42,377 bases of DNA from Desulfobulbaceae bacterium (GTDB lineage Bacteria > Desulfobacterota > Desulfobulbia > Desulfobulbales > Desulfocapsaceae): positions 1 to 42,377 of the forward strand of contig QZLB01000280.1 of assembly GCA_004796425.1 (NCBI GenBank), in the 5' to 3' direction. The notes under the pieces are model-generated. The model was not told where the DNA came from and did no database searches. It saw only the letters and a program-made list of their open reading frames with translations. Below are positions 22,889-30,501 of the stretch, in pieces (the stretch's first letter is position 1; every line of letters starts with the position of its first letter). The position numbers and the translations under genes were made by a program.

Positions 22889-24523
22889 TCATCGATCCTC
22901 ATTGTGTTGTACCAGTGCCGGTTCATATCCGTGAGGAGGAATAAATCCAAGCAGCACGCACAGTGTTGCCGCGATATTCGCCAGTCCCGGAGCTGAAAGA
23001 TCAGTCATATTGTACGTATTTTTTCCGGCAAAATCTTTTATTACGAATGGTACAGGATTTTTCGTGTGAGCAACCATTGGGGTCCGTATCCCATTTTTCT
23101 CGATGAACATCTGGTCTGCATTTCCATGGTCTGCAGTAATCACGGCAATACCACCCGCTTTTTCGATCGTTCGAAGCAGTCTGCCAAGGCACAGATCCAC
23201 CGTTTCAACAGCAATCCTGATGGACTCAGGATTACCGGTATGCCCAACCATGTCACCATTTGCATAATTTGCCCGCAGAAACTGGTATTCACCACACTCA
23301 ATGGCCTCAATCAGGTTATCGGTGATTTCAGCAGCTTTCATCCATGGTCTTTTATCAAACGTTACCCGGTCAGATTCAATTTCAATATACGTTTCTAGGT
23401 CTTGATTTATATAGCCTGATTTATTGCCGTTCCAGAAGTAGGTTACATGACCATATTTCTGAGTCTCGGAGATGGCAAACGTCTTTAAACCTGAAGCGCA
23501 AAAGAACTCGCTCACCGTGCCGCTGATTGAGGGAGGCTCGACCAGAAAATGAGCAGGTATCTGTGCATCTCCATCATATTGCATCATTCCCGCATAGAAC
23601 ACTTCTGGGAACCGTTGTCTTTCAAACTTGTTAAAATTCTCCTGCTCAAATGCCAGAGAAAGCTCAATGGCACGGTCTCCTCTAAAATTAAAGAGGACAA
23701 CACTGTCGCCATCATTAATGGTACCAATCGGTCCTTTTTCATCGCTGACAACGAAACTATCAAGATATTGATCTGTTATTTCAGGATCCTCGTCATAAAA
23801 CGTTTGGATTGCTTCTATTGCCGAGCCAAACGTTCGCGCTTGCCCAAGAACATGAGCCTGCCACCCTTTTTTAACAATTGACCAGTCTGCTTCATAGCGG
23901 TCCATGGTGGTTACCATCCGACCACCGCCTGAGGCGACACAATAATTATATCCGTCCTGCTGATAATCTCGGCAGGCAGACTCAAGCGGGCCAAAATAGT
24001 TCAGTGCACTTTTTGGTTCAACATCTCGGCCATCAAGCAGGCCGTGGATTCTGACCTCCCTGAAACCTTCGGTCCTGCACTGAGCCAGAATTTTATAAAG
24101 ATGATCAATATGGGAGTGAACATTGCCATCTGACACAAGCCCTATCAGATGAAAAACACCCCCTGCAGCACAGCGCTGTTGAATTGTTCGCCAACTATTG
24201 CCGTTAAAAATATCTCCATTCTCCAGCGCCTCATTGACCAGTTTGGCACCCTGGGAGAAAATCCGCCCCGCACCAATGGCGTTATGACCCACCTCTGAAT
24301 TGCCCATATCACCATCTGATGGTAACCCTACAGCCACACCATGAGCCTTCAACCGCGTGCTCAGCCCTTCACGGAAAAGCTTGTCCATAACGGGTGTGTG
24401 GGCAACCGCAACGCCATCACTCTCGTCACCTGCCCCATATCCAATACCGTCGAGTATGATGAGTGCAATTGGCCCCTGTCCTGTGGCATGGGCATTATCT
24501 GGTTCAAGTTTAGCAACAGTCAT
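22889..24523 (-). CDS. gpmI: 2,3-bisphosphoglycerate-independent phosphoglycerate mutase
   Basis: A 544-residue alkaline-phosphatase-superfamily enzyme that interconverts 3- and 2-phosphoglycerate in glycolysis and gluconeogenesis. It has the N-terminal metal site LIILDGIGYG, the nucleophilic Ser in GDMGNSEVGHNAIGAGR, HLIGLVSDGNVHSHIDH, HGLLDGRD, NFRGDRAIEL, ANYANGDMVGHTGN and the second metal site ITADHGNADQM. Length is slightly above the usual 510-515, mostly from an N-terminal extension and a longer tail. GGAGG lies nine bases before the ATG. It is first in a four-gene operon and divergent from the Mo/W operon. Confidence 0.96.
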   Translation of the reverse strand: MTVAKLEPDNAHATGQGPIALIILDGIGYGAGDESDGVAVAHTPVMDKLFREGLSTRLKAHGVAVGLPSDGDMGNSEVGHNAIGAGRIFSQGAKLVNEALENGDIFNGNSWRTIQQRCAAGGVFHLIGLVSDGNVHSHIDHLYKILAQCRTEGFREVRIHGLLDGRDVEPKSALNYFGPLESACRDYQQDGYNYCVASGGGRMVTTMDRYEADWSIVKKGWQAHVLGQARTFGSAIEAIQTFYDEDPEITDQYLDSFVVSDEKGPIGTINDGDSVVLFNFRGDRAIELSLAFEQENFNKFERQRFPEVFYAGMMQYDGDAQIPAHFLVEPPSISGTVSEFFCASGLKTFAISETQKYGHVTYFWNGNKSGYINQDLETYIEIESDRVTFDKRPWMKAAEITDNLIEAIECGEYQFLRANYANGDMVGHTGNPESIRIAVETVDLCLGRLLRTIEKAGGIAVITADHGNADQMFIEKNGIRTPMVAHTKNPVPFVIKDFAGKNTYNMTDLSAPGLANIAATLCVLLGFIPPHGYEPALVQHNEDR

Positions 24524-24687: not shown

Positions 24688-25299
24688 ATGCAAATTGATT
24701 TGACCCAGACTGGAAAACTCACGTGTCAAATGAATCCCGAAAGTCTGCACCGTTTTACTACGCTGCTTCAATCCGGATTTTATACCAAGTCGACGAGCAA
24801 TCGCACTCTGATTGAGTTTCTCTTAGACCTCCCTGGCTTTGACAAGGATTATGTGAACAACCGGCTGCAAACGATTTTTTATAACGGAGATGCCATCGAT
24901 GATACCAGCATTACTCTTTCAGGGGGCGAGGTAACACTTGCCCTCTCTGCCGCTATGCCAGGACTTGCCGGTGCTATTTTTCGCAAGAACAGTCCCCATG
25001 CAGGACTGAGAAAAAGTGCACCGGAAATGGCTGATGATCAACAAGATAAACCGATCATGATCAGGGTAAAATTGTTCAATGCCGTTGCACCCGAACGCGG
25101 GCTCGATCTACTGCGTCAAGGAGTTATACTGAAATCAAGAGATTTGCATAACTTTCTTGAACTTAGGCCATCACTGCGTGAAGCGATGAATTCTATTCAG
25201 CTTGACACCATACCATCAACACCTGAAGACGTTCTAACTGCCTGCGATCGCTTTCCCTATATCTCAACCACCATTTTTTCAACTAATGACACCAACTGA
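24688..25299 (+). CDS. unknown protein, first gene of the AOR/MoeA operon
   Basis: A 203-residue soluble protein that I do not recognise. Residues about 40-95 contain FLLDLPGFDKDYVNNRLQ and then a segment with the pattern Y-N-G-x-x-I-D-D ... L-x-G-G-x-V-x-L ... P-G-L-A-G-A, loosely like the end of a MoaD/ThiS beta-grasp domain, but with no terminal Gly-Gly. A polar linker follows, and the C-terminal half (PIMIRVKLFNAVAPERGLDLLRQGV) may be a second small domain. It overlaps moeA by 14 bp, so it is part of the operon and may have a role in Mo/W cofactor supply or AOR maturation (inference). No clear ribosome-binding site precedes the ATG. Confidence 0.75.
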   Translation: MQIDLTQTGKLTCQMNPESLHRFTTLLQSGFYTKSTSNRTLIEFLLDLPGFDKDYVNNRLQTIFYNGDAIDDTSITLSGGEVTLALSAAMPGLAGAIFRKNSPHAGLRKSAPEMADDQQDKPIMIRVKLFNAVAPERGLDLLRQGVILKSRDLHNFLELRPSLREAMNSIQLDTIPSTPEDVLTACDRFPYISTTIFSTNDTN

Positions 25300-26557
25300 T
25301 CCGATTAAAGATATGCTGGGCAGAGAGCAGTTACGCTCTGTTTCAGATGCGCGAAACCTTTTATTCTCTGAATTAGCTAACCTTTCAATTCAAACCGAAA
25401 CCATACCGCTTGAGCATGGCTTGGGAAGAATCAGCGGTTCTGAAATTTATTCTCCAGAGGATCTTCCTCGGCAAAACCGTTCTACTATGGATGGGTATGC
25501 GGTTGTTTCTGCCGACACTTTCGGCGCTACCGAATCAATGCCGGGATACCTGGAAATTTCCGGTGAAGTCAAAATGGGCGCAAACCCGCATGGTACCGTG
25601 ACCAGGGGACAATGTTTCAAAATTCCCACAGGAGGCATTCTACCTGAGGGTGCAGATGCGGTGGTCATGTTTGAACACACCGTTCTTGTCGATGACAAAA
25701 TGATCGAGGTGGTGAAAAGTGTCGGCTCGGGCGGTAATGTCATCAAAAAAGGAGAGGATATAAAAAAATCCGCTCAAGCAATACCAAAGAATAAGAAGTT
25801 GAGTGCCTATGACCTTGGTCTTCTTGCCGGACTCGGCATTGTAGAAATCGAAGTTTATAAAAAGGTGTCCGTAGGAATCATCTCAACCGGCGATGAGGTT
25901 GCCCCTTATGATCAGCCTTTGCCACCGGGTAAAATCCGTAATATAAATTCCATGGTGCTCCGCAATCTATCCTATGATTGTGGAGTCGACGTCATCGATT
26001 ATGGAATTGTTGCCGACACCGAGGAAATGTTTTTTTCCACGGTGCAAAAAGCAGTAGAGGAAACTGACCTGGTACTTTTTTCCGGAGGGAGCTCTGTTGG
26101 TGTCAGCGATCTCGGAGAACAGGCAATAGCCAGAGCCGGAGACCCTGGCGTGCTGATCCACGGAGTAAAACTAAAACCAGGAAAACCCGTAATCATTGGA
26201 TTTTGCAATCAGGTACCGGTGTTTGGCCTACCCGGTCACCCAGTTTCCGCTGCCATCTGTTTTGATCTTTTTGTCAAGCCAACCATCCAGAGAATTTCCG
26301 GAAAACTGGCTGATCATATCAATCGAGAACTCACCATATCTGCCATACTGAAGAGAAGCATTAATTCGGCGGCGGGACGCCTCGATATTGTGAGAGTTTC
26401 AGTGGAACAGACAGATGAAGGTTATGAGGCTCATCCTGTCCTGGGGAAATCTGGCTCGATTTCCTCTTTAGCAAAAGCTGACGGGTTTTTCATCATCGAG
26501 GAACCTATTCAAGGACTACCAGAAAACTCCACTGTTGAGGTTTTTATATATAAATGA
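25286..26557 (+). CDS. moeA: molybdopterin molybdenumtransferase MoeA
   Basis: A 423-residue MoeA of normal length, which inserts molybdate (or tungstate) into adenylylated molybdopterin. Signatures are complete: NRSTMDGYAV, KIPTGGILPEGADAVVMFE, IISTGDEV, FSGGSSVGVSDL, KPGKPVIIG and GLPGHPVSAA. It overlaps the upstream unknown gene by 14 bp and the following moeA-PBP gene by 4 bp (ATGA), so the three are translationally linked. An in-frame ATG at 25313 is an alternative start. As the conventional copy of a pair, it may serve one metal while the downstream fusion serves the other. Confidence 0.95.
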   Translation: MTPTDPIKDMLGREQLRSVSDARNLLFSELANLSIQTETIPLEHGLGRISGSEIYSPEDLPRQNRSTMDGYAVVSADTFGATESMPGYLEISGEVKMGANPHGTVTRGQCFKIPTGGILPEGADAVVMFEHTVLVDDKMIEVVKSVGSGGNVIKKGEDIKKSAQAIPKNKKLSAYDLGLLAGLGIVEIEVYKKVSVGIISTGDEVAPYDQPLPPGKIRNINSMVLRNLSYDCGVDVIDYGIVADTEEMFFSTVQKAVEETDLVLFSGGSSVGVSDLGEQAIARAGDPGVLIHGVKLKPGKPVIIGFCNQVPVFGLPGHPVSAAICFDLFVKPTIQRISGKLADHINRELTISAILKRSINSAAGRLDIVRVSVEQTDEGYEAHPVLGKSGSISSLAKADGFFIIEEPIQGLPENSTVEVFIYK

Positions 26558-28479
26558 AAAAAGACACCGTTTTTATACAGAATACTCCACTCACCGTGGT
26601 CCAGGAACAATGGCTTGCTGAACTGGAGCAGGCCGGTTTTATCAATGGCTGCGAACATGCAAGCATACCGGTAGATGAGGCGGTGGGTAGAATCACCGCC
26701 GCTCCGGTTTTTGCTCACCAGTCTTCGCCAAGCTACAACGCTGCGGCGATGGACGGTATTGCCGTCAGATTTCAAGATCTGCTTGGGGCCAGCGAAGGCG
26801 AACCGATTATCCTAGAATCAACCAAGTTTGCTCGGGTTAATACCGGTAACGCCATCGATGACATCTTCAATGCAGTCGTAATGATCGAAGATGTTCATTA
26901 TCATTCCGATGGCTCAGCCGAACTGATCAGCCCGGCAACACCATGGCAACATATCCGTAACGTTGGTGAGGATATTGTCGCCACTGAGCTGATCGTTCCG
27001 GAAAAGCACCTGATCAGGCCGATCGATCAGGGGGCATTGCTTGCGGCAGGCATAACATTGGTAGATGTATTGGTTGCCCCAAAAGTTGTGGTGATCCCCA
27101 CGGGTAGCGAGCTGGTTGAACCTGGAACGCAAAATAAGCCAGGGCAAATCATTGAATTTAATTCACGAATTTTATCAGGCTATCTCAAGGGATGGGGGGC
27201 TGACGTCACCGTCTACAAGCACATTCCCGATGACCCGGAGCTTCTTGAAGCGGCCATCATTCAAGCCATAGAAGAGGCCGATATCGTCGTCACCAACGCT
27301 GGTGCGTCAGCCGGCACCAAAGATTTTTCAGCAGGGATCCTAGAATCGGTTGGTAAAATTATAACGCACGGAGTTGCCATTAAACCAGGAAAGCCGGTCA
27401 TTCTTGGACTGGCCCGCAATACACCCATTATCGGTTTACCTGGATATCCGATTTCAGCTGTGCTCACTCTCAAACTTTTTGGTCGTCCACTGATTTACTC
27501 ATTCCTGGGCCTTGAACCACCTGCCCCCCAAACGACAACCGCACTCATGTCCCGACCTGTTCACTCCTCAATGGGCGTTGACCACTTCGTCCGGGTCACC
27601 CTGGGCAGAGTCCATGATGAGCTTATCGCAACTCCTTCAGGCAAAGGGGCTGGAGCGGTTATGTCTCTGGTCAGGGCTGATGGTCTTTTGACTATCCCTT
27701 CTGGAAATGAGGGAGTGGGTGCAGGGGAACGTGTCACCATCGAGTTATTGCGAGACCACAAAGAGGTGGATGCAACATTGGTGATCACCGGCAGTCACGA
27801 CAATATTATAGATACCATGGCTAACCAACTCCACCTTGCAAAACCGCGGGTCAGAGTTTCTTCCGCTCATGTTGGCTCAATGGGCGGCATCATGGCAATC
27901 AAGCGAGGTGAAGCGCATATGGCTGGAAGCCACCTGCTTGACGAAGAGACAGGAGAGTACAACATCTCGTTTATCAAACGGTTTCTCTCCAATCTGTCTC
28001 TTGATTTAATCACTCTCTGTTATCGCGAACAGGGACTTATCGTGCCGAAGGGAAACCCGAAAAATATCCAAAGTTTCAGTGATATGATTGCGGGAGAAAT
28101 GATATTTATTAACCGTCAAAAAGGTGCCGGTACCAGACTTCTTACTGATAACTTATTAAAGCAGCAGAAGATCGACTCTGCCCAACTCCATGGTTATGAC
28201 CATGAGGAGTATACCCATATGAATATTGCTGCAGCGGTAGCCGGAGGGCATGCAGATGCAGGAATGGGTATCCGGGCGGCGGCAAATGCCTTGGGACTCG
28301 ACTTTATACCGGTCACCGAGGAACGTTACGACCTTATTATACCGAAAGCATTGCAAACCGATTTCAGAGTTGATGCAGTGCTTAATATGATGAGGAAAAA
28401 AAGTTCGTTTCATGATAAGGTAACATCGCTGGGAGGGTACGACCTCAGAGATTGTGGGGCGGTGGTCTATAGCCAGTAA
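26554..28479 (+). CDS. MoeA-like protein fused to a periplasmic-binding-protein-like domain
   Basis: A 641-residue fusion. Residues about 1-400 are MoeA-like but diverged: AAMDGIAV, VNTGNAIDDIFNAVVMIED for the usual PTGA..P.GAD, IPTGSELV for TGDE, NAGASAGTKDF for SGG.SVG, and GLPGYPISA. Residues about 408-640 are a PBP-like (LysR-substrate/PF12727-type) domain with LVITGSHDN, GSMGGIMAIKRGEAHMAGSHLLD, QKGAGTRLLTD and AGMGIRAAANALGLDF. There is no signal peptide, so the binding domain is cytoplasmic and may present oxyanion or sense cofactor. Such fusions are common in archaea and anaerobes that use tungsten enzymes. Confidence 0.92.
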   Translation: MKKDTVFIQNTPLTVVQEQWLAELEQAGFINGCEHASIPVDEAVGRITAAPVFAHQSSPSYNAAAMDGIAVRFQDLLGASEGEPIILESTKFARVNTGNAIDDIFNAVVMIEDVHYHSDGSAELISPATPWQHIRNVGEDIVATELIVPEKHLIRPIDQGALLAAGITLVDVLVAPKVVVIPTGSELVEPGTQNKPGQIIEFNSRILSGYLKGWGADVTVYKHIPDDPELLEAAIIQAIEEADIVVTNAGASAGTKDFSAGILESVGKIITHGVAIKPGKPVILGLARNTPIIGLPGYPISAVLTLKLFGRPLIYSFLGLEPPAPQTTTALMSRPVHSSMGVDHFVRVTLGRVHDELIATPSGKGAGAVMSLVRADGLLTIPSGNEGVGAGERVTIELLRDHKEVDATLVITGSHDNIIDTMANQLHLAKPRVRVSSAHVGSMGGIMAIKRGEAHMAGSHLLDEETGEYNISFIKRFLSNLSLDLITLCYREQGLIVPKGNPKNIQSFSDMIAGEMIFINRQKGAGTRLLTDNLLKQQKIDSAQLHGYDHEEYTHMNIAAAVAGGHADAGMGIRAAANALGLDFIPVTEERYDLIIPKALQTDFRVDAVLNMMRKKSSFHDKVTSLGGYDLRDCGAVVYSQ

Positions 28480-28548: not shown

Positions 28549-30276
28549 ATGGCAGACAAAATTTTCCGTGTAAACATGACAGATCTCACCACCAGTATAG
28601 ATGATGTTCCGGAGGCATGGGCCGGACATGGTGGACGTGGTCTGACTTCAACAATCGTCTCCGAGGAAGTAGATCCTACCTGCCATCCACTTGGACCTCG
28701 GAACAAACTGGTTTTTGCACCGGGCCTGCTTTCGGGGACAGTCGCAGCTAACTCCGGTAGACTTTCTGCCGGTGCCAAGAGCCCGCTGACTAACACCATC
28801 AAAGAAACGAATGCAGGGGGTACCGCTGCTCAGCTTATGGCTCGCTGTGGTTGCAAGGCTTTGATCATTGAAGGCCAACCCAAAGATGACAAATGGTACG
28901 CCATTTCGATGACTCCCGACTCGATCACTATTGCAGAAGAAACAGATCTAGTTGGTAAAGGGAATTATACGGTTGTTAAGGAATTGAAAGAGAAGTTAGA
29001 AGGTAAGCAGGCCGTCATCACCATCGGTCCTGCCGGTGAAATGAAAATGACCGCAGCCAATATTTCCGTCATGGATCCTGATGGTAATCTGCGATCAAAT
29101 GGGAGAGGCGGCCTGGGTGCCGTAATGGGTTCCAAAAAGATAAAATTTATAACGGTCGACCCCAAAGATGGCAAAGTTGAAATCGCCAAGCCAGATGAGT
29201 TTAAAGCAGCCAACCGAGCCTTTGGTAAGGCACTGGTGGACAACCAGATCAGCCAGGCACTCGCCACGTATGGTACCAATGTTCTCGTTAATGTTATTAA
29301 CGAAGCTGGTGCTCTGCCAACCAAGAACTTCACGCTAGGTCAGTTTGAAGCACATGACAAGATTTCTGGCGAAACCATGCATGATCTTATCAATGAGCGT
29401 GGTGGCAAGCCGAAACATAATTGCCATGCTGGCTGTGTCATCCAGTGTTCGCAGATCTTTAACGACAAAGACAAAAACTACAAAACCGCAGGATTCGAAT
29501 ATGAGTCGATCTGGGCCATGGGCGCCGACTGCTGTGTTGAAAGCCTCGATGATATAGCCGAAGCTGATCAGATTATGGATGACCTCGGACTTGATACCAT
29601 TGAAACTTCGGTAGCTATTGGCGTCGCAATGGAGGCCGGCGTACTGGAATTTGGCGATGGACCAGGAGCCTGCAAACTGCTCCGTGACGAAGTGGGTAAA
29701 GGTACCCCGCTTGGCAGAATTATTGGCAACGGTGCAGGATCTGTCGGACTCGCATTTGGTGTCACGAGAGTTCCCGTCGTAAAGAATCAAGCGATCCCTG
29801 CATATGATCCCCGGGCGGTAAAAGGTATGGCAATTACCTACGCAACAACCACCATGGGAGCTGATCATACCTCAGGATATGCGGTTGCTACTAATATTCT
29901 TGGTGTAGGAGGCACTGTAGACCCACTCTCCAAAGAAGGACAGATTGAACTTTCCAGAAACCTGCAGATTGCCACCGCGGCAATCGATTCTACCGGGATG
30001 TGCCTGTTTATAGCCTTTGCTGCACTGGATGACCCGGATTGTCTGCCAGCCCTGATTGATCTGATCAATGCCCGGTATGGCTTGAGTCTGACCGGCGACG
30101 ATGTTACCAACCTGGGTAAGTCGATTCTTAAGACCGAACGGGCCTTTAATCAGGCCGCCGGATTCGGTCCCGCAGATGATCGCCTGCCAGAGTTCTTCTA
30201 TGATGAACCACTGCCACCACATAATACGGTTGTAGATTTTACTCCGGAAGAAATTGATTCTTTCTGGAATTTTTAG
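28549..30276 (+). CDS. aor: aldehyde:ferredoxin oxidoreductase (Mo/W-bis-pterin enzyme)
   Basis: A 575-residue AOR-family enzyme that would oxidise aldehydes to acids (or reduce acids) with ferredoxin, using a tungsten or molybdenum bis-pterin and one [4Fe-4S] cluster in the cytoplasm. The N-terminal domain shows LVFAPGLLSGT, SGRLSAGAKSPLT and GRGGLGAVMGSKK. Cluster ligands are Cys292, Cys296, Cys300 and probably Cys485 (STGMCLF). The first spacing is CX3CX3C, not the CX2CX3C of the Pyrococcus enzyme. I chose the ATG at 28549 because GAGGAG is eight bases before it; the upstream frame back to 28486 lacks such a site and adds 21 non-conserved residues. moaD starts on the next base after its stop. 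Confidence 0.93.
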   Translation: MADKIFRVNMTDLTTSIDDVPEAWAGHGGRGLTSTIVSEEVDPTCHPLGPRNKLVFAPGLLSGTVAANSGRLSAGAKSPLTNTIKETNAGGTAAQLMARCGCKALIIEGQPKDDKWYAISMTPDSITIAEETDLVGKGNYTVVKELKEKLEGKQAVITIGPAGEMKMTAANISVMDPDGNLRSNGRGGLGAVMGSKKIKFITVDPKDGKVEIAKPDEFKAANRAFGKALVDNQISQALATYGTNVLVNVINEAGALPTKNFTLGQFEAHDKISGETMHDLINERGGKPKHNCHAGCVIQCSQIFNDKDKNYKTAGFEYESIWAMGADCCVESLDDIAEADQIMDDLGLDTIETSVAIGVAMEAGVLEFGDGPGACKLLRDEVGKGTPLGRIIGNGAGSVGLAFGVTRVPVVKNQAIPAYDPRAVKGMAITYATTTMGADHTSGYAVATNILGVGGTVDPLSKEGQIELSRNLQIATAAIDSTGMCLFIAFAALDDPDCLPALIDLINARYGLSLTGDDVTNLGKSILKTERAFNQAAGFGPADDRLPEFFYDEPLPPHNTVVDFTPEEIDSFWNF

Positions 30277-30501
30277 ATGAAACTCACCGTTAAATTGTTT
30301 GCCTACTTCCGCGACGACAGGTTCGTCGCGGAAGTACTCGATTTACCTCCTGATACTTCTATCCAAGACATTGCAGTAAAGCTCGATATCGATCCGGATG
30401 AAGTCGGAATTCTGATGATTAATTCCCGCCAGTCCAACCTGCAGGCAAAGCCATCCGAGGGTGATACCGTCGCAATTTTTCCGAAGGTTGGTGGTGGCTG
30501 A
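30277..30501 (+). CDS. moaD: MoaD/ThiS-family sulfur carrier linked to AOR
   Basis: A 74-residue beta-grasp protein with the hydrophobic LKVKLFAYF-type first strand (MKLTVKLFAYFRDD), GDTVAIFPKVGGG at the end and the exposed C-terminal Gly-Gly used for adenylation and thiocarboxylation. MoaD supplies sulfur for the molybdopterin dithiolene with MoaE. It begins on the base after the aor stop, typical of AOR-linked MoaD genes, and is last in the operon. The very end is Gly-Gly-Gly. Confidence 0.92.
   Translation: MKLTVKLFAYFRDDRFVAEVLDLPPDTSIQDIAVKLDIDPDEVGILMINSRQSNLQAKPSEGDTVAIFPKVGGG

Follow-up and report, generated by a model that had tools for sequence, protein, structure and literature searches.

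What is the role of the 203-residue protein encoded at the head of an AOR operon in this Desulfobulbaceae genome? The window, by which we mean the whole stretch of 42,377 nucleotides that was analysed, carries the gene, orf203, at 24688–25299 on the + strand. It opens a run of + strand genes, as a sequence-only reading had proposed, the preceding long ORF (22889–24523) being divergent. Downstream on the same strand lie a moeA of the Mo/W insertase family (25286–26557), a PRK14498-like fusion of moeA to a PBP-like domain (26554–28479; both assigned with Pfam and NCBIfam), an aor gene of the short-AOR clade (28549–30276; 575 aa from the conserved start, in an ORF open from 28486) and a moaD-like gene (30277–30501), whose 74-aa product has GGG at its C-terminus and is possibly a sulfur carrier. 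The two insertases, one separate and one fused to the PBP-like domain, are paralogous. The divergent ORF resembles gpmI by eye, and a homologue of it is in view in 16 of the 26 loci of the family set. An Rfam search of 18–34 kb of the window yielded no element at the cut-off. One MoaE and two ThiF-type genes are present in the window's genome, the match to one of the latter being interrupted by a stop; the genome therefore seems equipped for ordinary pterin synthesis.

ORF203 represents, with high confidence, a real, AOR-associated family. The motifs on which the sequence-only reading had relied are present as YNGDAIDD, LSGGEVTL and PGLAGA and exceed chance expectation, and homologues at 23–44% identity keep the core. 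In an alignment of 26 sequences, collected without any motif requirement and hence free of motif selection bias, D71, P91, G92, L93 and G95 are among the invariant residues; a weak second match in one genome (L051 in G011, E 0.004) aligned poorly, appeared ACT-like by eye and was left out. Homologues were found in 25 of 58 relatives by a single-sequence search, and of 257 genomes searched in the class the family profile matched 92. Across the phylum, ORF203 occurs in 59 of 395 sampled genomes, one of them with a weak partial match. Many of the genomes searched are drafts, and the counts given here are of the matches listed. A scan of named contigs, seeded on [AG]AMPGL[AV]GA, retained 80 of 302 loci, and named carriers include Desulfofustis, Desulfopila, Desulforhopalus, Desulfoprunum, Desulfocapsa and uncultured Desulfobacterales.

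The protein was indeed unrecognised in the sense that no Pfam or NCBIfam family matched ORF203 at the cut-off, Pfam ThiS and NCBIfam moaD/thiS included. EF-hand_13 (E 0.025), peptidylprolyl isomerase A and Msr ABC-F all fell below the cut-off and were rejected. Dedicated molybdoenzyme chaperones include the TorD/NarJ, FdhD and XdhC types; none of these was among the Pfam and NCBIfam matches of ORF203. A search of PDB sequences with the family profile returned only unrelated proteins at E 0.07 and above, plasmids held no homologue at E 0.1, the 94 pattern matches in viral contigs included no relative, and a BFVD search with ORF203 gave noise. Thus neither profile nor structure searches produced a confident match to an unrelated known family. 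A description of ORF203 was likewise not found in the literature searched, mainly journals available without subscription.

The distribution of ORF203 follows that of the short AOR. The short-AOR orthologue group was delimited by a gap in scores, full-length matches reaching at least 963 bits and the next ones 838 and below. In the class, 80 genomes have both ORF203 and a short AOR, 12 have ORF203 only, 23 the AOR only and 142 neither. G075 was added by hand as positive for the short AOR though its place is unlisted (without it the table reads 79/13/23/142), and G153, G163 and G175 were counted as negative, their best match being below the score gap, or low and unlisted. Fisher's test gives p of about 1e-31 to 1e-32 for this co-occurrence, a value that ignores shared ancestry. 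An AFOR_C gene is present in 89 of the 92 ORF203 genomes versus 41 of the 165 others in the class. Across the phylum sample, each of the 59 genomes with ORF203 is also among the 310 with AFOR, the lists having been compared by eye, an overlap that says less because AFOR is common there.

Statistics of this kind are inflated by shared ancestry; a better argument for the link to AOR is that the neighbourhood has been rearranged repeatedly. Among the 102 ORF203 matches in the class, 59 lie on a short-AOR contig and 54 within 5 kb of the short AOR, 52 of these 54 on the same strand. A neighbourhood survey, which the sequence-only reading had called for, places homologues with enough flanking sequence mostly near AOR: for named loci flanked by 5 kb or more on each side, AOR is within 5 kb in 34 of 41 and on the same strand in 33. 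Among more distant members, 19 of the 25 loci from the phylum search, which were examined with 1.5-kb flanks, have aor immediately upstream of orf203 in the same orientation (gap 0–313 bp), as do all nine distant named loci (gap 1–562 bp), which makes 28 of 34 overall. The order orf203-moeA-moeA/PBP-aor-moaD is seen in 14 of 25 loci of the window's family, from which count L051 was left out. Other loci of this family read orf203-aor-moaD (L041, L047) or aor-orf203-moaD (L049, L050), neither arrangement including moeA, or place aor before orf203 (L042, L045); in L031 and L044 aor is not in view, and L048, L052 and L053 are cut by contig ends.

The partnership with moeA is looser. The gene follows orf203 in most loci of the window's family and is absent in others, and no moeA match was found in the nine distant named loci. 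The 14-bp overlap that had been taken to tie ORF203 translationally to MoeA is present in the window, given the called moeA start at 25286, but is not conserved: the junction in relatives ranges from an 8-bp overlap (L034) to a gap of about 130 bp (L040). Of the proposed tie to both MoeA and AOR, the AOR part therefore stands and the moeA part does not hold generally. ORF203 is tied to aor, a link that is well supported, more than to moeA, whose link is lineage-specific. In five further loci (L081, L085, L102, L103, L117) the order is aor-orf203 with one or both moeA copies out of view, which suggests that moeA was gained or lost in the orf203 operon.

The linkage has exceptions. In family f12, ORF203 is apart from AOR: the two are 8.5–9.2 kb away on opposite strands in three genomes (G104, G105, G112), 767 kb away in G119 and elsewhere on other contigs. 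Five Desulfobulbaceae loci that look f12-like (L098, L100, L118, L120, L126) have ORF203 adjoining a long gene, which in L118 encodes DHH, CBS and poly(A)-polymerase domains and in the others appears alike by eye; AOR is not in view in any of the five. Some of these loci also hold a Mem_trans permease, and infB- and nusA-like genes are near as judged by eye. Two named loci (L058, L089) keep orf203-moeA-moeA-moaD with aor not in view, 6 of the 25 phylum loci have no AOR within 1.5 kb, and 23 of the 103 short-AOR genomes lack an ORF203 match. In Desulfobulbus alkaliphilus a 600-aa ORF without a Pfam match (L101, 8647–10449) adjoins ORF203 and is followed by a CobT-type phosphoribosyltransferase (DBI_PRT).

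Such loci raise the alternative that ORF203 is a general helper of Mo/W cofactor insertion that works with MoeA for several enzymes, its linkage to AOR reflecting cofactor demand. The position of orf203 directly 5′ of moeA in most window-family loci, the two loci that retain orf203-moeA with no aor in view and the unlinked f12 copies would all fit. Against these stand the distant homologues that sit beside aor without moeA and the presence of ORF203 that tracks the short AOR, and we regard a general helper as distinctly improbable.

The main rival to a maturation role casts ORF203 as a stable subunit, structural or regulatory, of the short AOR; it might for instance form a ferredoxin- or substrate-side cap. 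The position of orf203 directly after aor in distant relatives is consistent with a subunit, as is one natural fusion, a single 444-aa ORF (L194, 2417–3751, − strand) in which an ORF203-like domain is linked to part of an AFOR_C region containing CxxCxxxC (AFOR_C E 1.2e-7); this is a single case, and its AOR part is incomplete. Moreover, no catalytic residues are suggested in ORF203, and the ORF203-linked AORs share a similar tail, their AFOR_C match extending to about 345 of 385 positions and that of other AORs to 385. Against a stable subunit speak the location of ORF203 away from AOR in f12 and some other genomes and its grouping with moeA and moaD in family f1. We consider this rival unlikely, and a further point against it comes from the proteins that occupy the same slot, described below. 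Apparent fusions in G295, G413 and G174 (frames of 458–1106 aa) were read as spurious frames that overlap; the AOR of G295 is encoded within the stretch of the long open frame but on the other strand.

The predicted structure offers a first indication of what kind of protein this is. An AlphaFold2 model of full-length ORF203, built with 26 homologues (pLDDT 91.5, pTM 0.87), consists of two related halves packed together. The N-half (residues 1–108; 24688–25011) is modelled as strand-helix-strand-helix-helix-strand-strand-strand, and the C-half (residues 118–203; 25039–25296) follows the same order except that a helix at 179–188 replaces the short strand before the last. The two halves also align in hhalign with a score of 24–28, which none of 100 column shuffles reached, so ORF203 looks like an internal duplication in which the C-half is a diverged repeat of the N-half. 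When the N-half was modelled alone with 113 homologues (pLDDT 87), the positions of the first two strands were without strands, which suggests that the halves depend on each other.

Foldseek with the N-half ranked a MoaD first (6jbz_B, probability 0.97, E 0.16), followed by 3rpf_C (MoaD of H. pylori), TtuB, TGS and SAMP1, all E-values being above 0.1. VIA gave ThiS (1zud_2) at Z 5.9, with 2.3 Å over 57 residues, and MoaD (6jc0_A/6jbz_B) at Z 5.0; all Z values are below 6 and thus below the clear range of the tool. Ubiquitin-like and S4/RluD-type chains score only 1–2 Z lower, and the β-grasp class is therefore better supported than the exact family. With the whole model, Foldseek gave no match at E 0.001, possibly an effect of having both halves in a single chain, and when chains from this search were passed to VIA only two rows reached Z of at least 2, both of them MoaD. 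Direct comparison of the N-half with the MoaD profile was non-significant, 5 of 100 shuffles scoring as high. Taken with the profile bridge described below, these models give fair support to ORF203 being a predicted β-grasp protein of MoaD derivation.

The sequence-only reading had called ORF203 MoaD-like but with the relevant segment internal, and both parts of this description are supported by the structural ranks of the N-half, by the profile bridge and by the position of the tail motif inside the chain. When the structures are superposed, ORF203 residues up to 93 meet the C-terminal end of the MoaD/ThiS chains, and P91-G92-L93 falls where those chains end; ORF203 reads A-M-P-G-L-A-G-A here and then continues. 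This stretch belongs to a conserved segment, identified by alignment and structural superposition, at residues 82–108 (24931–25011; VTLALSAAMPGLAGAIFRKNSPHAGLR). MPGLAGA is found in 141 of 170 ORF203-family ORFs, with a close variant in most others, in a set in which some genes are counted twice and many were found through the motif itself. Residues 82–99 form the most conserved stretch of the N-half in a larger alignment, with which the 26-sequence alignment agrees. Rows of the larger alignment were picked by a PG regular expression, four ORFs lacking it were dropped and near-copies were removed, so that the invariance of P91, G92 and G95 in it is partly by construction. Beyond the motif, L107 and R108 are invariant and R99 nearly so in the 26 sequences.

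Residues 91–120 are the least confident part of the full-length model (block means pLDDT 71–75), and residues 91–108 score about 89 in the N-half-only model. A stretch that is conserved yet modelled with low confidence points to the possibility that the segment around MPGLAGA may become ordered on a partner.

MoaD chemistry needs a free C-terminal glycine. As the diglycine of MoaD is replaced by an internal segment, ORF203 should not be adenylated or thiocarboxylated as MoaD is. It could still be a sulfur carrier or ubiquitin-like modifier if its C-terminus were exposed by cleavage after the PG motif, a scheme to which the MoaD/ThiS-like predicted fold, the E1-like genes in some short-AOR operons and the invariant glycines G92 and G95 would lend themselves. 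We think this very improbable: the position of the MoaD end holds MPGLAGA rather than GG in the motif-biased set above, the segment after the motif is also conserved and is followed by a second half, and the operon already has a GG-ending MoaD. A C-terminal GG occurs in 2 of the 170 family ORFs, away from the MPGLAGA motif. Electron transfer through an Fe-S cluster is unlikely too, since no Cys is widely conserved (at most 5 of 26 rows at every column of the 26-sequence alignment). With no free C-terminal glycine and no widely conserved Cys, protein–protein or cofactor binding remains.

Further evidence comes from a different protein found beside the same type of enzyme. In Acetoanaerobium noterae (Clostridia), the genes downstream of a short AOR 55.5% identical to that of the window encode a 110-aa protein and, after it, MoaD; this record has no ORF203 homologue, to which, as one record, we attach little weight by itself. 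The 110-aa protein passes Pfam ThiS (23.4 versus a cut-off of 22.5 bits), and its tail reads PPGCPGPYRIALGFYGKN... and is not diglycine. Used as a query, it has matches in 42 of 297 genomes of the window's phylum. All 13 matches with E <1e-9 contain GxPGP[YH]R, and we refer to these single-domain proteins of about 90–115 aa as PG proteins; two of three that were tested pass the Pfam ThiS cut-off. The weaker matches that were inspected are GG-ending MoaDs or another diglycine-less type. Three of the 13 PG loci (L253, L254, L259) hold a short-type AOR and MoaD, and the other ten (L247–L252, L255–L258) show no AOR in the stretch examined, some of these stretches being short. The 23 genomes with a short AOR and no ORF203 match provided 20 loci for examination, four of which (L260, L261, L263, L264) read AOR-MoaD-E1-PG. 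Most of the others read AOR-MoaD with or without E1, several being truncated at contig ends; L270 and L273 have moeA-moeA-aor with neither ORF203 nor PG. Over loci L028–L213 and the window, all matches to a PG profile were MoaDs.

A tree of 44 AORs, which has some long branches (other_L202, L205, PG_L214), groups the 20 ORF203-linked enzymes with the 8 PG-linked ones in a single clade of 100/100 support, apart from 16 others. The two kinds are interleaved within it, with at least three label changes, all forced by well-supported branches, and three changes may equal one gain and two losses. This interleaving within one clade indicates that ORF203 and PG stand in for each other. The replacement is thus a MoaD relative that is also found without AOR nearby, which is the further point against a stable AOR subunit. 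That PG proteins are MoaD relatives is supported by profile comparison (E 2.6e-11), and they supply the bridge to ORF203, whose N-half matches PG with a score of 29.5 (E 1e-4, probability 57%) against a shuffle maximum of 23.8 (n=100). The similarity is local, covering residues 36–86, and global mode fails (E 0.67); the C-half compares with PG no better than shuffles do, 30 of 100 scoring as high.

ORF203 is thus a variant of a known theme, that of MoaD-like proteins in AOR operons. It shares with the MoaD/ThiS sulfur carriers (PF02597) a predicted β-grasp core, a Mo/W context and the profile link through PG, but unlike them has two halves, an extra conserved segment and neither a C-terminal diglycine nor a Pfam match. 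PG proteins resemble it in sitting beside the same AOR clade with the diglycine replaced by a PG motif, and differ in being single-domain, in having GxPGP[YH]R instead of MPGLAGA and in often lacking a nearby AOR. MoaD genes linked to AOR were reported in 2006 (PMC1779556). The closest precedent is Aromatoleum, which like the window operon has MoaD-like genes beside aor, there as the pair aorD and aorE; both products are MoaD-like and were absent from the purified enzyme (PMC6365974). A further report gives AOR activities of 4.5 U/mg without aorDE, 16 with them and 85 with aorDE plus tungstate (PMC9295118). The corresponding W contents of 1.06, 0.39 and 1.52 count against the precedent in one respect, since aorDE without extra tungstate went together with less W despite the higher activity.

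We favour, with a probability of roughly 0.6, the reading that ORF203 is a dedicated tandem β-grasp accessory factor, not itself carrying sulfur, for AOR cofactor maturation. An AOR maturation factor was among the possibilities named by the sequence-only reading, which in this respect guessed well. By analogy, a slot-mate that is a MoaD relative, the MoaD and often MoeA of the operon, and the Aromatoleum MoaD-like pair with its higher AOR activity would together favour maturation, a role that we hold with moderate confidence. ORF203 would act beside the true MoaD of the operon, using its MPGLAGA-FRK-...-R segment to dock on apo-AOR, on the cofactor machinery (MoeA, MoaD/E1, MPT synthase) or on both, and would keep AOR ready for the bis-pterin W/Mo cofactor; or it may bridge apo-AOR to that machinery through the MPGLAGA-FRK part of the segment. 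Here we infer both the binding to AOR and the step assisted.

A bolder version is that the two halves hold the bis-pterin W/Mo cofactor between them, as the N-terminal module of AOR does, and pass it to apo-AOR. This module (PF02730) has two tandem β-grasp copies, perhaps descended from a precursor resembling MoaD, that bind metallopterin (PMC1949818), and ORF203 is like it in being tandem β-grasp by prediction, about 200 aa long and part of the same system. The profiles, in contrast, are unlike (score 14.6 versus a shuffled mean of 14.3), and descent of ORF203 from the module, whose AFOR_N profile is unmatched, was rejected for want of support from this comparison. Holding of the cofactor by analogy with the module seems to us an outside chance. 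If true, ORF203 would be a chaperone dedicated to cofactor delivery in the AOR family, and would belong with several other ubiquitin-like twins that lack the diglycine and are found alongside MoaD in AOR operons.

Little has been worked out about the way in which tungsten enzymes of the AOR family acquire their cofactor, and no description of a dedicated chaperone for them was found in the literature searched, except for the putative maturation factors AorD and AorE. A diglycine-less MoaD-like protein that accompanies one AOR clade and in other genomes is swapped for another such protein suggests that two ubiquitin-like proteins are at work in many AOR operons, one that carries sulfur and one that does not. 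The finding could help to make active AORs for acid-to-aldehyde biocatalysis.

The matches to the Acetoanaerobium protein also brought up, in another AOR group, a second diglycine-less type of the ThiS family, which follows MoaD and has a tail reading ...SMWPFQYRHG..., at L230 (1670–2053), on which Pfam was run, and also at L232, L234, L236, L240 and L243. It adjoins a GG-ending MoaD, and AOR is in view in five of the six loci.
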